A DNA stretch of 64,000 nucleotides, taken from Candidatus Polarisedimenticolaceae bacterium. Lineage in GTDB: Bacteria; Acidobacteriota; Polarisedimenticolia; Polarisedimenticolales; DASRJG01. The stretch lies in NCBI GenBank assembly GCA_036275915.1, contig DASUCV010000002.1, positions 62,001-126,000 of the forward strand, read 5' to 3'. This document shows positions 26,321 through 28,747 of the stretch, one piece after another; the first letter of the stretch is position 1, and each line of letters begins with the position of its first letter. Below the pieces are notes generated by a model, which was not told the DNA's origin, made no database searches, and worked only from the letters and a program-made list of their open reading frames with translations. Both the position numbers and the translations under genes were made by a program.

Positions 26321-26396
26321 GGGCGGTTAGCTCAGCCGGTAGAGCGCCTGCTTTACACGCAGGAAGTCGTCGGTTCGAGTCCGGCACCGCCCACCA
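26321..26396 (+). tRNA. tRNA-Val (anticodon TAC)
   Basis: The 76-base sequence folds as a complete cloverleaf. The acceptor stem GGGCGGT pairs with ACCGCCC, the D-arm is TAGCTCAGCCGGTAGA, and the anticodon stem CCTGC/GCAGG encloses the loop TTTACAC with anticodon TAC. The T-arm contains GGTTCGAGTCC, and the CCA end is encoded. The anticodon reads GTA/GTG valine codons. Confidence 0.97.
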
Positions 26397-26410
26397 GCGG
26401 GGGCGGCGAT

Positions 26411-26438
26411 TTGATTCGGCGGAGGCCTCTGCTATGAT
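26411..26438 (+). promoter_or_regulatory. Promoter for tRNA-Asp
   Basis: TTGATT (26411-26416) and TATGAT (26433-26438) are 16 bases apart. Transcription would begin about 14 bases before the mature 5' end at 26459. This suggests tRNA-Asp can be made separately from tRNA-Val. Confidence 0.55.
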
Positions 26439-26458
26439 CCACGGGTTTTTCCAGGCAC

Positions 26459-26535
26459 GGAGCCGTAGTGCAGTTGGTTAGCACACCGGACTGTCACTCC
26501 GGAGGTCGCGGGTTCGAGCCCCGTCGGCTCCGCCA
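26459..26535 (+). tRNA. tRNA-Asp (anticodon GTC)
   Basis: The 77-base cloverleaf has acceptor stem GGAGCCG/CGGCTCC, a D-arm with GCAGTTGGTTAGCAC, anticodon stem CCGGA/TCCGG around the loop CTGTCAC (anticodon GTC), and a T-arm GCGGGTTCGAGCCCCGT. Discriminator G is followed by an encoded CCA. G at discriminator position 73 is standard for tRNA-Asp. Confidence 0.97.
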
Positions 26536-26548
26536 CACCTTCTGACGC

Positions 26549-27217
26549 TCACCCTTCGGGCGTCGCTTTCCCTTTCGCGTAGTGGCGCCGCGCCTTCGCG
26601 CGGTTGCCGCAGATCTTCATGTCGCACCAGCGGCGCGACCCGTTCTTGCTCCGGTCGAGGAAGAGCCATGCGCAGGTCGTTGAGTTGCATTCGCGGACCC
26701 GAACCTTGGCTTCGGAAGTCAGGAGGTCAAGCGCGCCTCGGACCACCGGCGCGATGACTGCGGCGGCGAGGTCGTTCTCGTCGCTCGCGAACCGCACGGT
26801 AAAGGTTTCCCCGTCCCGCACGATTCGCGGCGACGCGAAGGCCGACGGGAGGGCCTCGTCGAGGGTCGAGAGCGCTTCCACGGGTATCGCCTTCTCGCGA
26901 GCGATCGCCGAAAAGATCGAGAAGATCGCTTCACGGACCGCGGCCGCCCTGCGAAGCGCCGTCACGGCCGCGCGTGGCTGCTCGCTCGCCCGCTTGCGAT
27001 GGCTCGCGCCTTCATGCGCGGTCATCAATCGCGCCGCCTCGGCCCACGAGACGAGACGGCCGTAGCGGTCGAGGTTGTCCCGGGTCTCGCCCACGGCCTT
27101 CCGCCTGCTCACGGTGTTGGCGAAGTCGAGGGCGACGTTGTCGCCGTCCAGATGGAACGCGTAGCCGTCGGCCTTCGTGTCGGCAGGATCGACCACAGTG
27201 TGTCCCTCGGCGCTCAT
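26549..27217 (-). CDS. ABATE/CGNR zinc-finger protein, probable transcription regulator
   Basis: A 222-residue protein. The N-terminal part contains the ABATE-type segment LDGDNVALDFANTVSRR and a helical region. At the C-terminus is a CGNR zinc finger: C-x4-C in RECNSTTCAWLFLD and then WCDMKICGNRAKARRHY. Members of this family are predicted DNA-binding regulators. The ATG at 27217 was chosen because a TATATT box sits 8 bases upstream and because starting further upstream (GTG 27280) would place coding sequence over the divergent promoter and its operator-like repeats. It is divergent from a small secreted-protein gene and likely controls it and itself. Confidence 0.82.
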   Translation of the reverse strand: MSAEGHTVVDPADTKADGYAFHLDGDNVALDFANTVSRRKAVGETRDNLDRYGRLVSWAEAARLMTAHEGASHRKRASEQPRAAVTALRRAAAVREAIFSIFSAIAREKAIPVEALSTLDEALPSAFASPRIVRDGETFTVRFASDENDLAAAVIAPVVRGALDLLTSEAKVRVRECNSTTCAWLFLDRSKNGSRRWCDMKICGNRAKARRHYAKGKATPEG

Positions 27218-27225
27218 ATAACCCC

Positions 27226-27231
27226 AATATA
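27226..27231 (-). promoter_or_regulatory. -10 box TATATT for the CGNR gene
   Basis: On the minus strand TATATT matches the -10 consensus at five positions and ends 8 bases before ATG 27217, giving a very short leader or none. No good -35 box was seen at the usual distance, which would suit an activated promoter. Confidence 0.45.
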
Positions 27232-27235
27232 CCTC

Positions 27236-27264
27236 TTGACAGGTTAGATCGGCCACGGTAGATT
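27236..27264 (+). promoter_or_regulatory. Sigma70-type promoter of the small secreted-protein gene
   Basis: TTGACA (27236-27241), a perfect -35 box, is followed after exactly 17 bases by TAGATT (27259-27264). Transcription would start near 27271, inside the operator-like inverted repeat, and leave a leader of about 40 bases before ATG 27313. Confidence 0.65.
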
Positions 27265-27295
27265 CATAACCGTCAAACACACATTAGACGGTTAA
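27236..27295. promoter_or_regulatory. Triple operator-like repeat between CGNR gene and secreted-protein gene
   Basis: Three copies of a TTGAC(A)GGTTA-like half-site lie in the divergent promoter: TTGACAGGTTA at 27236-27246 (+), TTGACGGTTAT at 27276-27266 (-), and TTAGACGGTTAA at 27284-27295 (+). The last two form a perfect inverted repeat, TAACCGTC (27267-27274) and GACGGTTA (27287-27294), over the expected transcription start. The arrangement fits binding by the adjacent regulator; that is inference. Confidence 0.5.
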
Positions 27296-27312
27296 ACACC
27301 GAAGGAGACGTC

Positions 27313-27720
27313 ATGAGCCGTTCGATCACGACCGCCACCCTTCTCATTGCCACCCTGCCGCTCCTGGCCGGACGCGCTTATGCCGCCCCCGCGCCGAAAC
27401 GCGAGGAGATCAAGCTCGACCGCACCGCGACGGTCGGTGCTGCCATCGTGCCGCCGGGGACCTACCGGGTCGAGATCGCGTCGGATCTGACGACGGCGAC
27501 CCTTTTCCAGGGCAAGCGGCCGGTGGCGACCGCGCCGGTCCACGTGGGTCTCGGCGAGGTCATCTACCCCGGCAACGCCCTTCACTTCCGCCCCGAGGCC
27601 GGAGGCGCCGACCGGCTCGTGAAGATCGTTTTCGGCGATTCGCGCGTTTCGCTCGACTTCAATCCGGCCGTCCCCGAAAAGGCCGACGCCGGCATCGCCG
27701 GTCCGGTGGCCACGCACTGA
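27313..27720 (+). CDS. Small secreted protein of unknown function
   Basis: A 135-residue protein with a signal peptide (ATLLIATLPLLAGRAYA, cleavage near residue 25). The mature part has the pattern KLDRTATVGAAIVPPGTYRVEIASD, resembling small secreted beta-sandwich proteins common in Acidobacteria, but no named function could be assigned. It has a strong promoter with an operator-like region upstream, is divergent from a CGNR regulator, and is followed by a very strong intrinsic terminator, so it is a single-gene transcription unit. Confidence 0.8.
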   Translation: MSRSITTATLLIATLPLLAGRAYAAPAPKREEIKLDRTATVGAAIVPPGTYRVEIASDLTTATLFQGKRPVATAPVHVGLGEVIYPGNALHFRPEAGGADRLVKIVFGDSRVSLDFNPAVPEKADAGIAGPVATH

Positions 27721-27722
27721 GT

Positions 27723-27759
27723 GCGAACGGCCGGCCGACGGCCGGCCGTTCGCGTTTTT
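27723..27759 (+). terminator. Intrinsic terminator after the small secreted-protein gene
   Basis: A perfect 14-bp stem (GCGAACGGCCGGCC at 27723-27736, pairing with 27740-27753) with a 3-base loop is followed by G and five Ts. It begins 3 bases after the stop codon. It is the clearest rho-independent terminator seen in the window. Confidence 0.92.
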
Positions 27760-27820
27760 GCTCCCTCTCGGTAAGAATCACTGTACGTTCACATGTCTCG
27801 TGAGCGGAGGGAGCATTCGG

Positions 27821-28747
27821 ATGTTTCAACCGAAGGTCGCGGCGTGCGCGCTCGGCGCCGTGCTGGCCGCCGGCATCGCTGCCGCGCAGTCGAGCGAGCC
27901 GCCGAAGCCGATCTCGTCGAACGCGGCCGACAGCCCGGTGCGCACGGTCAGCGGTCAGGTCGTCGCGCGTACGGACGCTTCCCTGCCCCCGGCGCTCGGC
28001 CCCGACCCGGCTCGCGTCGTGGTGGTCGTCTTCAGCGATTTCCAGTGCCCCGTGTGCAAGCGGTCCGCGGACGCGACGCAGCAGATCGCCGAAGAGTTCC
28101 CGGGCGACGTGCGCGTCGAGTTCTGGCAGCACGCGCTCACGACGCACACGATGGCGATGCCCGCGGCGATCGCCTCGCTCGCGGCGCAGCGCCAGGGCCA
28201 GTTCTGGGCGTATCACGATCTGCTCTTCCGGAATCAAAACGCGCTCGATCAGGCGAGCCTCGAGCGCTACGCGGAGCAGGCGGGCCTCGACGTGTCGCGC
28301 TTCCGCGAGGACTGCGCCGACCCGGCGCTGCGCGAGCGCGTGACCGCCGAGAGCGCCGTCGCCGAGAAGCTCGGCGCGGTCGGAACGCCGGCGCTCATGA
28401 TCAACGGCAAGCTCCACGTCGGCTGGGGAAGCTGGCTCTCGTTCCGCGGCGACGTCGAGCGCGAGCTCGGCGAAGCGCGCCGCGTCGAGGGCGACGGCAC
28501 GCCGTCGGCCGACGTCGCCCGTGAGCGCGCGAAGACGCTCATCACCGAGCCCGACAAGCTCGACCTGTACCTCGATCGCGTGCTCGCCGGCAAGCCGCTC
28601 GTCGCCAGCGCGGCCGCGCCGGCACCCGCGTCCGCCCCCGAAGCGGCGGCGCCTGAATCGTCGAAGAAGCACAAGAAGGACAAGAAGAAGAAATCCCACA
28701 AATCGGACGCGGACACCGACGCCTCGGCGGCCGCGGCCACGCCCTAG
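27821..28747 (+). CDS. Secreted DsbA-like thioredoxin-fold protein
   Basis: A 308-residue exported protein. A signal peptide (about 24 residues, VLAAGIAAAQ) precedes a linker and a DsbA-type thioredoxin domain (about residues 55-200) with redox motif CPVC (C76, C79) in FSDFQCPVCKRS and the cis-proline loop GTPALMING. A helical tail follows, then an alanine/proline-rich and very lysine-rich C-terminus (KKHKKDKKKKSHK). ATG 27821 is chosen over an upstream ATG because it has a GGAGGGAG ribosome site and puts the signal peptide first. It precedes a double-domain relative, so both probably act in periplasmic disulfide chemistry. Confidence 0.83.
   Translation: MFQPKVAACALGAVLAAGIAAAQSSEPPKPISSNAADSPVRTVSGQVVARTDASLPPALGPDPARVVVVVFSDFQCPVCKRSADATQQIAEEFPGDVRVEFWQHALTTHTMAMPAAIASLAAQRQGQFWAYHDLLFRNQNALDQASLERYAEQAGLDVSRFREDCADPALRERVTAESAVAEKLGAVGTPALMINGKLHVGWGSWLSFRGDVERELGEARRVEGDGTPSADVARERAKTLITEPDKLDLYLDRVLAGKPLVASAAAPAPASAPEAAAPESSKKHKKDKKKKSHKSDADTDASAAAATP

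Follow-up and report, generated by a model that had tools for sequence, protein, structure and literature searches.

Within the window, by which we mean the whole 64-kb stretch of DNA that was analysed, a gene for a CGNR/ABATE regulator (P0001) lies divergent to its presumed target, which encodes a small secreted protein (P0002), with two palindromic elements and several promoter-like sequences between them (Table 1). The start codon of P0001 was chosen by reading the sequence, as ATG 27217 or alternatively as GTG 27196. Between the former, on the minus strand, and the ATG of P0002 on the plus strand, the intergenic stretch measures 95 bp.

Table 1 Features of the divergent CGNR region (positions are those of the window)
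Feature	Position	Strand	Remarks
P0001, CGNR/ABATE regulator gene	26549-27217	-	222 aa; PF07336 and PF11706 matches
Two alternative CGNR -10 candidates, TATATT (27231-27226) and TATATG (27220-27215)	27215-27231	-	Inferred from sequence reading
Candidate proximal operator dyad, TAACC-N18-GGTTA, TAACCCCAATATACCTCTTGACAGGTTA	27219-27246		Rare pattern; kept upstream of relatives
Predicted promoter of the divergent gene, TTGACA-N17-TAGATT	27236-27264	+	Consensus scan; recurrence in relatives
Candidate distal operator dyad, TAACC-N18-GGTTA, TAACCGTCAAACACACATTAGACGGTTA	27267-27294		Second dyad in 33 of 47 regions
P0002, small secreted-protein gene, divergent, presumed target	27313-27720	+	135 aa; ATG at 27313

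The two genes and the dyads between them

P0001 is the sole zf-CGNR gene of its genome, and its product matches both Pfam domains above their cut-offs (zf-CGNR, 71.6 bits against 24; ABATE, 72.5 bits against 24.4). The four zinc-binding cysteines and the CGNR motif of a treble-clef finger are all in place: C177, C182, C198, C203, G204 and R206 are invariant, and N205 nearly so, in an alignment of 19 sequences; the peptide patterns that had retrieved 18 of them themselves cover part of this finger stretch. An AlphaFold2 model built from the 19 sequences (pLDDT 86.5) had a single significant match in the PDB, the protein Jann_2411 (3h0n; E = 1.9e-5, TM-scores 0.48/0.56), consistent with an ABATE fold; a profile of P0001 also reached 3h0n (E = 2.4e-8), and a direct sequence search of the PDB with P0001 gave no match. 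Jann_2411 has the same two domains, ABATE and zf-CGNR, and the same fold as P0001, at a low identity of 19%. In the accessible part of the paper that describes it, its authors infer a probable dimer and an unknown ligand for ABATE, and consider the treble-clef finger likely to bind nucleic acid or DNA (PMC2954205). The same part gives no DNA site, operator or target gene.

P0002 had no Pfam or NCBIfam match, and its weak relatives occur in 4 of 199 phylum genomes, its own genome counted. A weak paralogue in contig C9 lies in a region without the dyad, and a single-sequence structure model of P0002 was poor (pLDDT 51) and was left unused. Downstream of P0002, between 27758 and 30334, two successive ORFs encode candidate thioredoxin-fold (DsbA-type) proteins, judged by eye from the translation, the second with two candidate DsbA-type domains.

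The proximal and distal dyads have identical geometry, spanning 28 bp each with starts 48 bp apart. The earlier note had described three half-sites here, and all the elements that it listed are present; it overlooked a fourth, TAACC at 27219-27223, which completes the proximal dyad with the same N18 gap as the distal one, so that the four make two equal dyads. Two of its half-sites had been read as a perfect 8-bp inverted repeat, and they are indeed the only two exact copies of GACGGTTA in the 64 kb, an inverted pair at 27267-27274 (-) and 27287-27294 (+) that, when extended, forms an 11-nt inverted repeat (91% complementary). The overlap of another half-site, GACAGGTTA at 27238-27246 (+), with a perfect -35 box (TTGACA, 27236-27241) is equally borne out. 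As the core motif, GACGGTTA was ruled out, because the bases flanking TAACC and GGTTA differ among relatives and between dyads, and the conserved core is instead TAACC-N18-GGTTA. Next to the core of the proximal dyad, TGTCAA is conserved as well, which the divergent promoter's -35 box accounts for in part.

Single half-sites with up to one mismatch are not rare, with 31 seen in the window against 26 expected, and to this extent the elements could be chance repeats in AT-rich promoter sequence. The full pattern argues the other way: TAACC-N18-GGTTA with up to one mismatch matches twice in the 64-kb window against 0.07 expected, and its exact form occurs in only two places of the 4.53-Mb genome, 27219-27246 and 27267-27294. 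Together with the permutation controls and the conservation in relatives reported below, this makes chance a barely credible explanation. Palindromes rarer than chance thus lie between a regulator gene and a divergent gene, as in a divergent autoregulatory operator region.

Conservation of the dyad with CGNR genes

Relatives were drawn from a search of 396 phylum genomes, which gave 76 matches in 61 genomes, and from a one-genome-per-species scan, which gave 18 loci found by peptide patterns. By record title, the scan loci are mostly from Acidobacteriota, with Pseudomonadota, Planctomycetota, Bacteroidota and Dormibacteraeota also represented. The upstream set comprised 47 of 48 loci, the window's own included (L012, which came without upstream DNA, was dropped), and the partial matches L004 and L005 entered the census only. 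Exact sites in these 47 regions concentrate on one gap, with 41 at N18, two at N17, three at N19 and none at any other gap from 8 to 30. With gaps of N17-19 and up to one mismatch, a dyad stands in 40 of the 47 regions (two in 33, one in 7), so that the half-sites, whose lack of conservation upstream of orthologues the earlier note had named as grounds for refutation, proved to be conserved, at a fixed gap and usually paired. The seven regions without such a dyad are L009, L010, L031, L032, L034, L039 and L042. Neighbouring dyads are most commonly 48 bp apart (16 of 40 pairs) and 44-45 bp apart in 12 of the 40, and conservation of the site reaches homologues at 31% protein identity. The TAACC dyad occurs in 34 of 47 regions, against a maximum of 4 of 47 for the other 29 letter permutations of TAACC, and the remainder of the same loci yielded two N18 matches in 270,820 positions, one an exact palindrome heading the operon that contains the CGNR gene of L009, the other before a neighbouring gene in L028.

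Two of these arrangements deserve description in their own right. In L009 and L010 (L166:521-548), the CGNR gene is the second gene of an operon and an exact dyad heads each operon, both of which start with a gene for a 4Fe-4S protein resembling the divergent gene of L036. In L028, a third exact TAACC-N18-GGTTA (L028:2507-2534) precedes the convergent neighbour of the CGNR gene, which resembles the divergent gene of L021 and L015 and is maybe another target.

The phylum census scored 74 of the 76 matches, L012 and a match in G306 having been dropped. At E < 1e-20, a TAACC dyad lies within about 420 bases in 30 of 36 homologues, or 32 of 36 with symmetric variants; the exceptions are L009 and L010, with the dyad at the operon head instead, L031, with short-gap repeats only, seen by eye, and L124, with no dyad in the upstream scan. 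At E >= 1e-20, the dyad is found in 14 of 38, or 21 of 38 counting symmetric variants, so the rule is strong among close homologues and fades with distance. Across four E-value bins, TAACC was found in 22 of 25, 8 of 11, 4 of 21 and 10 of 17 regions, against maxima of 3, 3, 3 and 5 regions for its other 29 permutations. Some distant homologues have a variant half-site by eye, for example ACACC/GGTGT in L155.

The genes on the other side of the dyads are diverse. Among 38 divergent frames scanned, including that of the window, 14 match DinB-type proteins and 13 EamA transporters, and the remainder include acetyltransferases, a short-chain dehydrogenase, an epoxide hydrolase and a flavodoxin-fold reductase. 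Neighbours vary while the site stays constant, and the dyad tracks the CGNR gene, not the neighbour gene, though only 14 of 38 distant phylum matches have it. The divergent partners, mostly exporters, thiol-transferase-like proteins and other enzymes, suggest that many family members may answer to small toxic molecules, a role for which the small secreted P0002 is no obvious fit. In the 26 genomes of genus g55, which was picked after the table was seen, the exact pattern occurs in all 10 genomes with a CGNR match and in none of the 16 without, a contrast that physical linkage alone would also give through joint loss of site and gene. The contrast loses strength when all 396 genomes are taken together (40 of 61 with CGNR and 103 of 335 without, in a hand tally), because the exact pattern also arises by chance.

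These distributions bear on whether the dyads might be bound by another, unlinked regulator that controls CGNR genes, a reading for which there is some room, as contact between CGNR protein and site is presumed. We consider it improbable: the window's genome has no further copy of the exact pattern, and its one-mismatch places fall below the reversed control; the sites are missing from all 16 g55 genomes without CGNR; similar sites stand beside CGNR genes with differing neighbours in several phyla; and loci of one gap class tend to group together on the tree of CGNR proteins (see below). Judging from these sequence comparisons, the dyads are very probably where the CGNR family binds DNA, controlling its own gene and the neighbour. 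The operator set for a CGNR regulator that had been proposed from the window alone thus gains support from its retention in homologues and its association with the CGNR gene.

Promoter overlap and the proposed mode of control

The divergent promoter, in which the -10 box TAGATT (27259-27264) follows 17 nt after TTGACA, is the only promoter-like site that a consensus scan found in 26500-28000, where shuffled sequences give 0.1; the same scan of this interval detected no CGNR promoter. The divergent -35 box sits in the right-arm side of the proximal dyad, and the distal dyad begins 2 bp past the -10 box and would span the expected start near 27271, in agreement with the earlier placing of the inverted repeat on the start of transcription. 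On the opposite strand, the two candidate CGNR -10 boxes lie in or beside the proximal dyad; if either is in use, the start codon may be GTG 27196, which has GAGGGA 6 bases before it, in place of ATG 27217. The same layout recurs in relatives: at 31 proximal N18 dyads, TTGACA stands at the same place with at least 5 of 6 bases in 28 and exactly in 22, and a -10 box lies 16-18 bases on in 16 (shuffled flanks, mean 2.9 and maximum 8 in 500 shuffles). A CGNR-strand -10 box with at least 5 of 6 bases overlaps GGTTA in 12 of the 31 (shuffled mean 1.2, maximum 5). The sites thus overlap promoter-like elements, identified by the scan and by recurrence in relatives for the divergent gene, and by sequence reading only for the CGNR gene.

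We put at roughly 80% the reading that the two dyads are operators of CGNR protein dimers, which would repress their own gene and the divergent gene until a signal to the ABATE domain releases them. Each dyad would bind one dimer, with one treble-clef finger per TAACC half-site, and since the half-site centres are 23 bp, or 2.2 turns, apart, the fingers would approach nearly the same side of the helix. A dimer on the proximal dyad would hide both the divergent -35 box and the CGNR promoter, and one on the distal dyad would obstruct the site where divergent transcription begins. Because the candidate operators cover both promoters and the divergent start, the bound protein would repress both the CGNR gene and the secreted-protein gene, making the stretch a two-way control region from which a ligand sensed by the ABATE domain would release the protein. 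We infer repression over activation, and autorepression with divergent repression and release by an ABATE ligand appears to be the most economical model.

Position alone is indecisive here, as regulators beside a divergent gene can also activate, and the proximal dyad lies at the divergent -35 box. That the dyads are real CGNR sites from which the protein activates the divergent gene, or both genes, is nevertheless unlikely: the distal dyad lies past the divergent -10 box, over the expected start, where a bound protein normally blocks, and a perfect TTGACA, present in the window and in 22 of 31 relatives, needs no activator. The inverted repeats could also pair in RNA, the distal dyad standing at the 5' end of the divergent transcript, and might then be attenuator or leader hairpins and not operators. 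We give this almost no weight, since the conserved arms are just 5 bp around an 18-base gap of which the length, not the pairing, is kept, the divergent transcript would start past the proximal dyad, and the distal stem would be incomplete because the predicted start near 27271 falls inside its left arm.

Repression from paired operators, the reading preferred here, has well-known counterparts. In TetR/LacI-type divergent autoregulatory regions, palindromes lie between divergent genes, over both promoters and beside the regulator gene; ligand-released repression is the usual logic, and half-sites are usually spaced more closely than 23 bp. The palindromes in our region likewise lie between divergent genes, over promoters and next to a regulator gene, whereas their half-sites are 23 bp apart, the two dyads keep a fixed distance of 44-48 bp, and P0001 carries no helix-turn-helix annotation, its presumed DNA-reading unit being the treble-clef zinc finger. 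The control scheme is familiar; neither the site recognised nor the family presumed to read it appears to be. Among open-licence papers on the CGNR/ABATE family, we found a published structure (2009) and no DNA site or target. In Bordetella pertussis, the CGNR gene bp3097, whose locus number places it beside molybdate transport genes, is strongly up-regulated with modA (bp3095) and modB (bp3094), and the accessible part of that report gives no binding site for it (PMC9976334). A conserved and precisely placed operator makes the putative regulator testable in many bacteria, in its binding, its spacing rule and its target gene, and the dyads offer a sequence-based way to predict targets for a family that is widespread yet unstudied.

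Sites elsewhere in genomes and in other phyla

A wider regulon in the window's genome found no support, with 5 further one-mismatch places against 12 for the reversed control, and no exact site at N19 elsewhere in that genome. In genome G304 (loci L168-L183), 16 exact dyads were found against 5 for the reversed control, and several of them extend to TAACCATCAAAA. At 9 of the 16 loci, the site falls inside an ORF of more than 300 bases on at least one strand, and the double arrangement is present at the CGNR pair only. Some sites are intergenic, for example near a helix-turn-helix regulator gene in L171, and most are not obviously operators; a regulon in G304 is possible.

To look beyond the phylum, we used 29 plasmid loci, a choice made for variety and not at random among the 253 and 236 matching records listed. 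Long-gap dyads (N18/N19, up to one mismatch) occur in 7 of the 29, from Sphingomonas, Pantoea, Caballeronia, Paraburkholderia, Pseudomonas, Mesobacillus and Alicyclobacillus, and symmetric long variants in 4 (one Deinococcus and three Rhizobiaceae). Streptomyces loci have similar half-sites with a gap of 9, mostly adjoining the start codon, such as TAACC-N9-GGTTA and TCACC-N9-GGTGA, exact and symmetric in 6 of the 29. At L064, L070, L082 and L085, sites were seen by eye or with a mismatch only, and at 8 of the 29 no site of any kind was found. Half-sites of this kind are thus found next to CGNR genes from Pseudomonadota, Bacillota, Deinococcota and Actinomycetota. In a free-gap test, with ACC/GGT fixed, outer bases complementary and gaps of 4 to 30, the first set peaked at 18 (29 of 47), and the plasmid set had peaks at 9 (6 of 29) and 19 (4 of 29); N9 differs from N18-19 by 9-10 bp, roughly a full helical turn. 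Mapped onto a 73-protein tree (L071 and L073 removed, L082 omitted as too short), the gap class required 12 changes against a shuffled mean of 26.4, with 0 of 200 shuffles as low, on a tree whose bootstrap is unsettled and in which near copies favour clustering, and with the labels of the plasmid loci, L009 and L031 set by hand, some of them from two-mismatch or by-eye sites.

These patterns raise a broader proposition, to which we assign even odds: that a single ancestral half-site, T(A/C)ACC, is recognised across much of the zf-CGNR family, in palindromes of two spacings that differ by a turn of the helix. The spacing would be N17-19 in Acidobacteriota, Pseudomonadota, Bacillota and Deinococcota, whereas Actinomycetota would have N8-9 directly adjoining the start codon. 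The finger dimer would then be a DNA-reading module mainly governing divergent genes of transport or detoxification type (EamA exporters, DinB-type thiol transferases, hydrolases and reductases). Half-site changes showed no clear pattern against finger residues, in a comparison whose search expression missed 7 of 28 proteins.

Two further observations concern the genomic setting of the CGNR gene. Directly downstream of it, at 26321-26535 of the window, lie tRNA-Val and tRNA-Asp genes, and CGNR homologues are patchy in near relatives, being found in 4 of 60 genomes. The tRNA neighbours and the patchy distribution would be in keeping with the module having been acquired next to tRNA genes.
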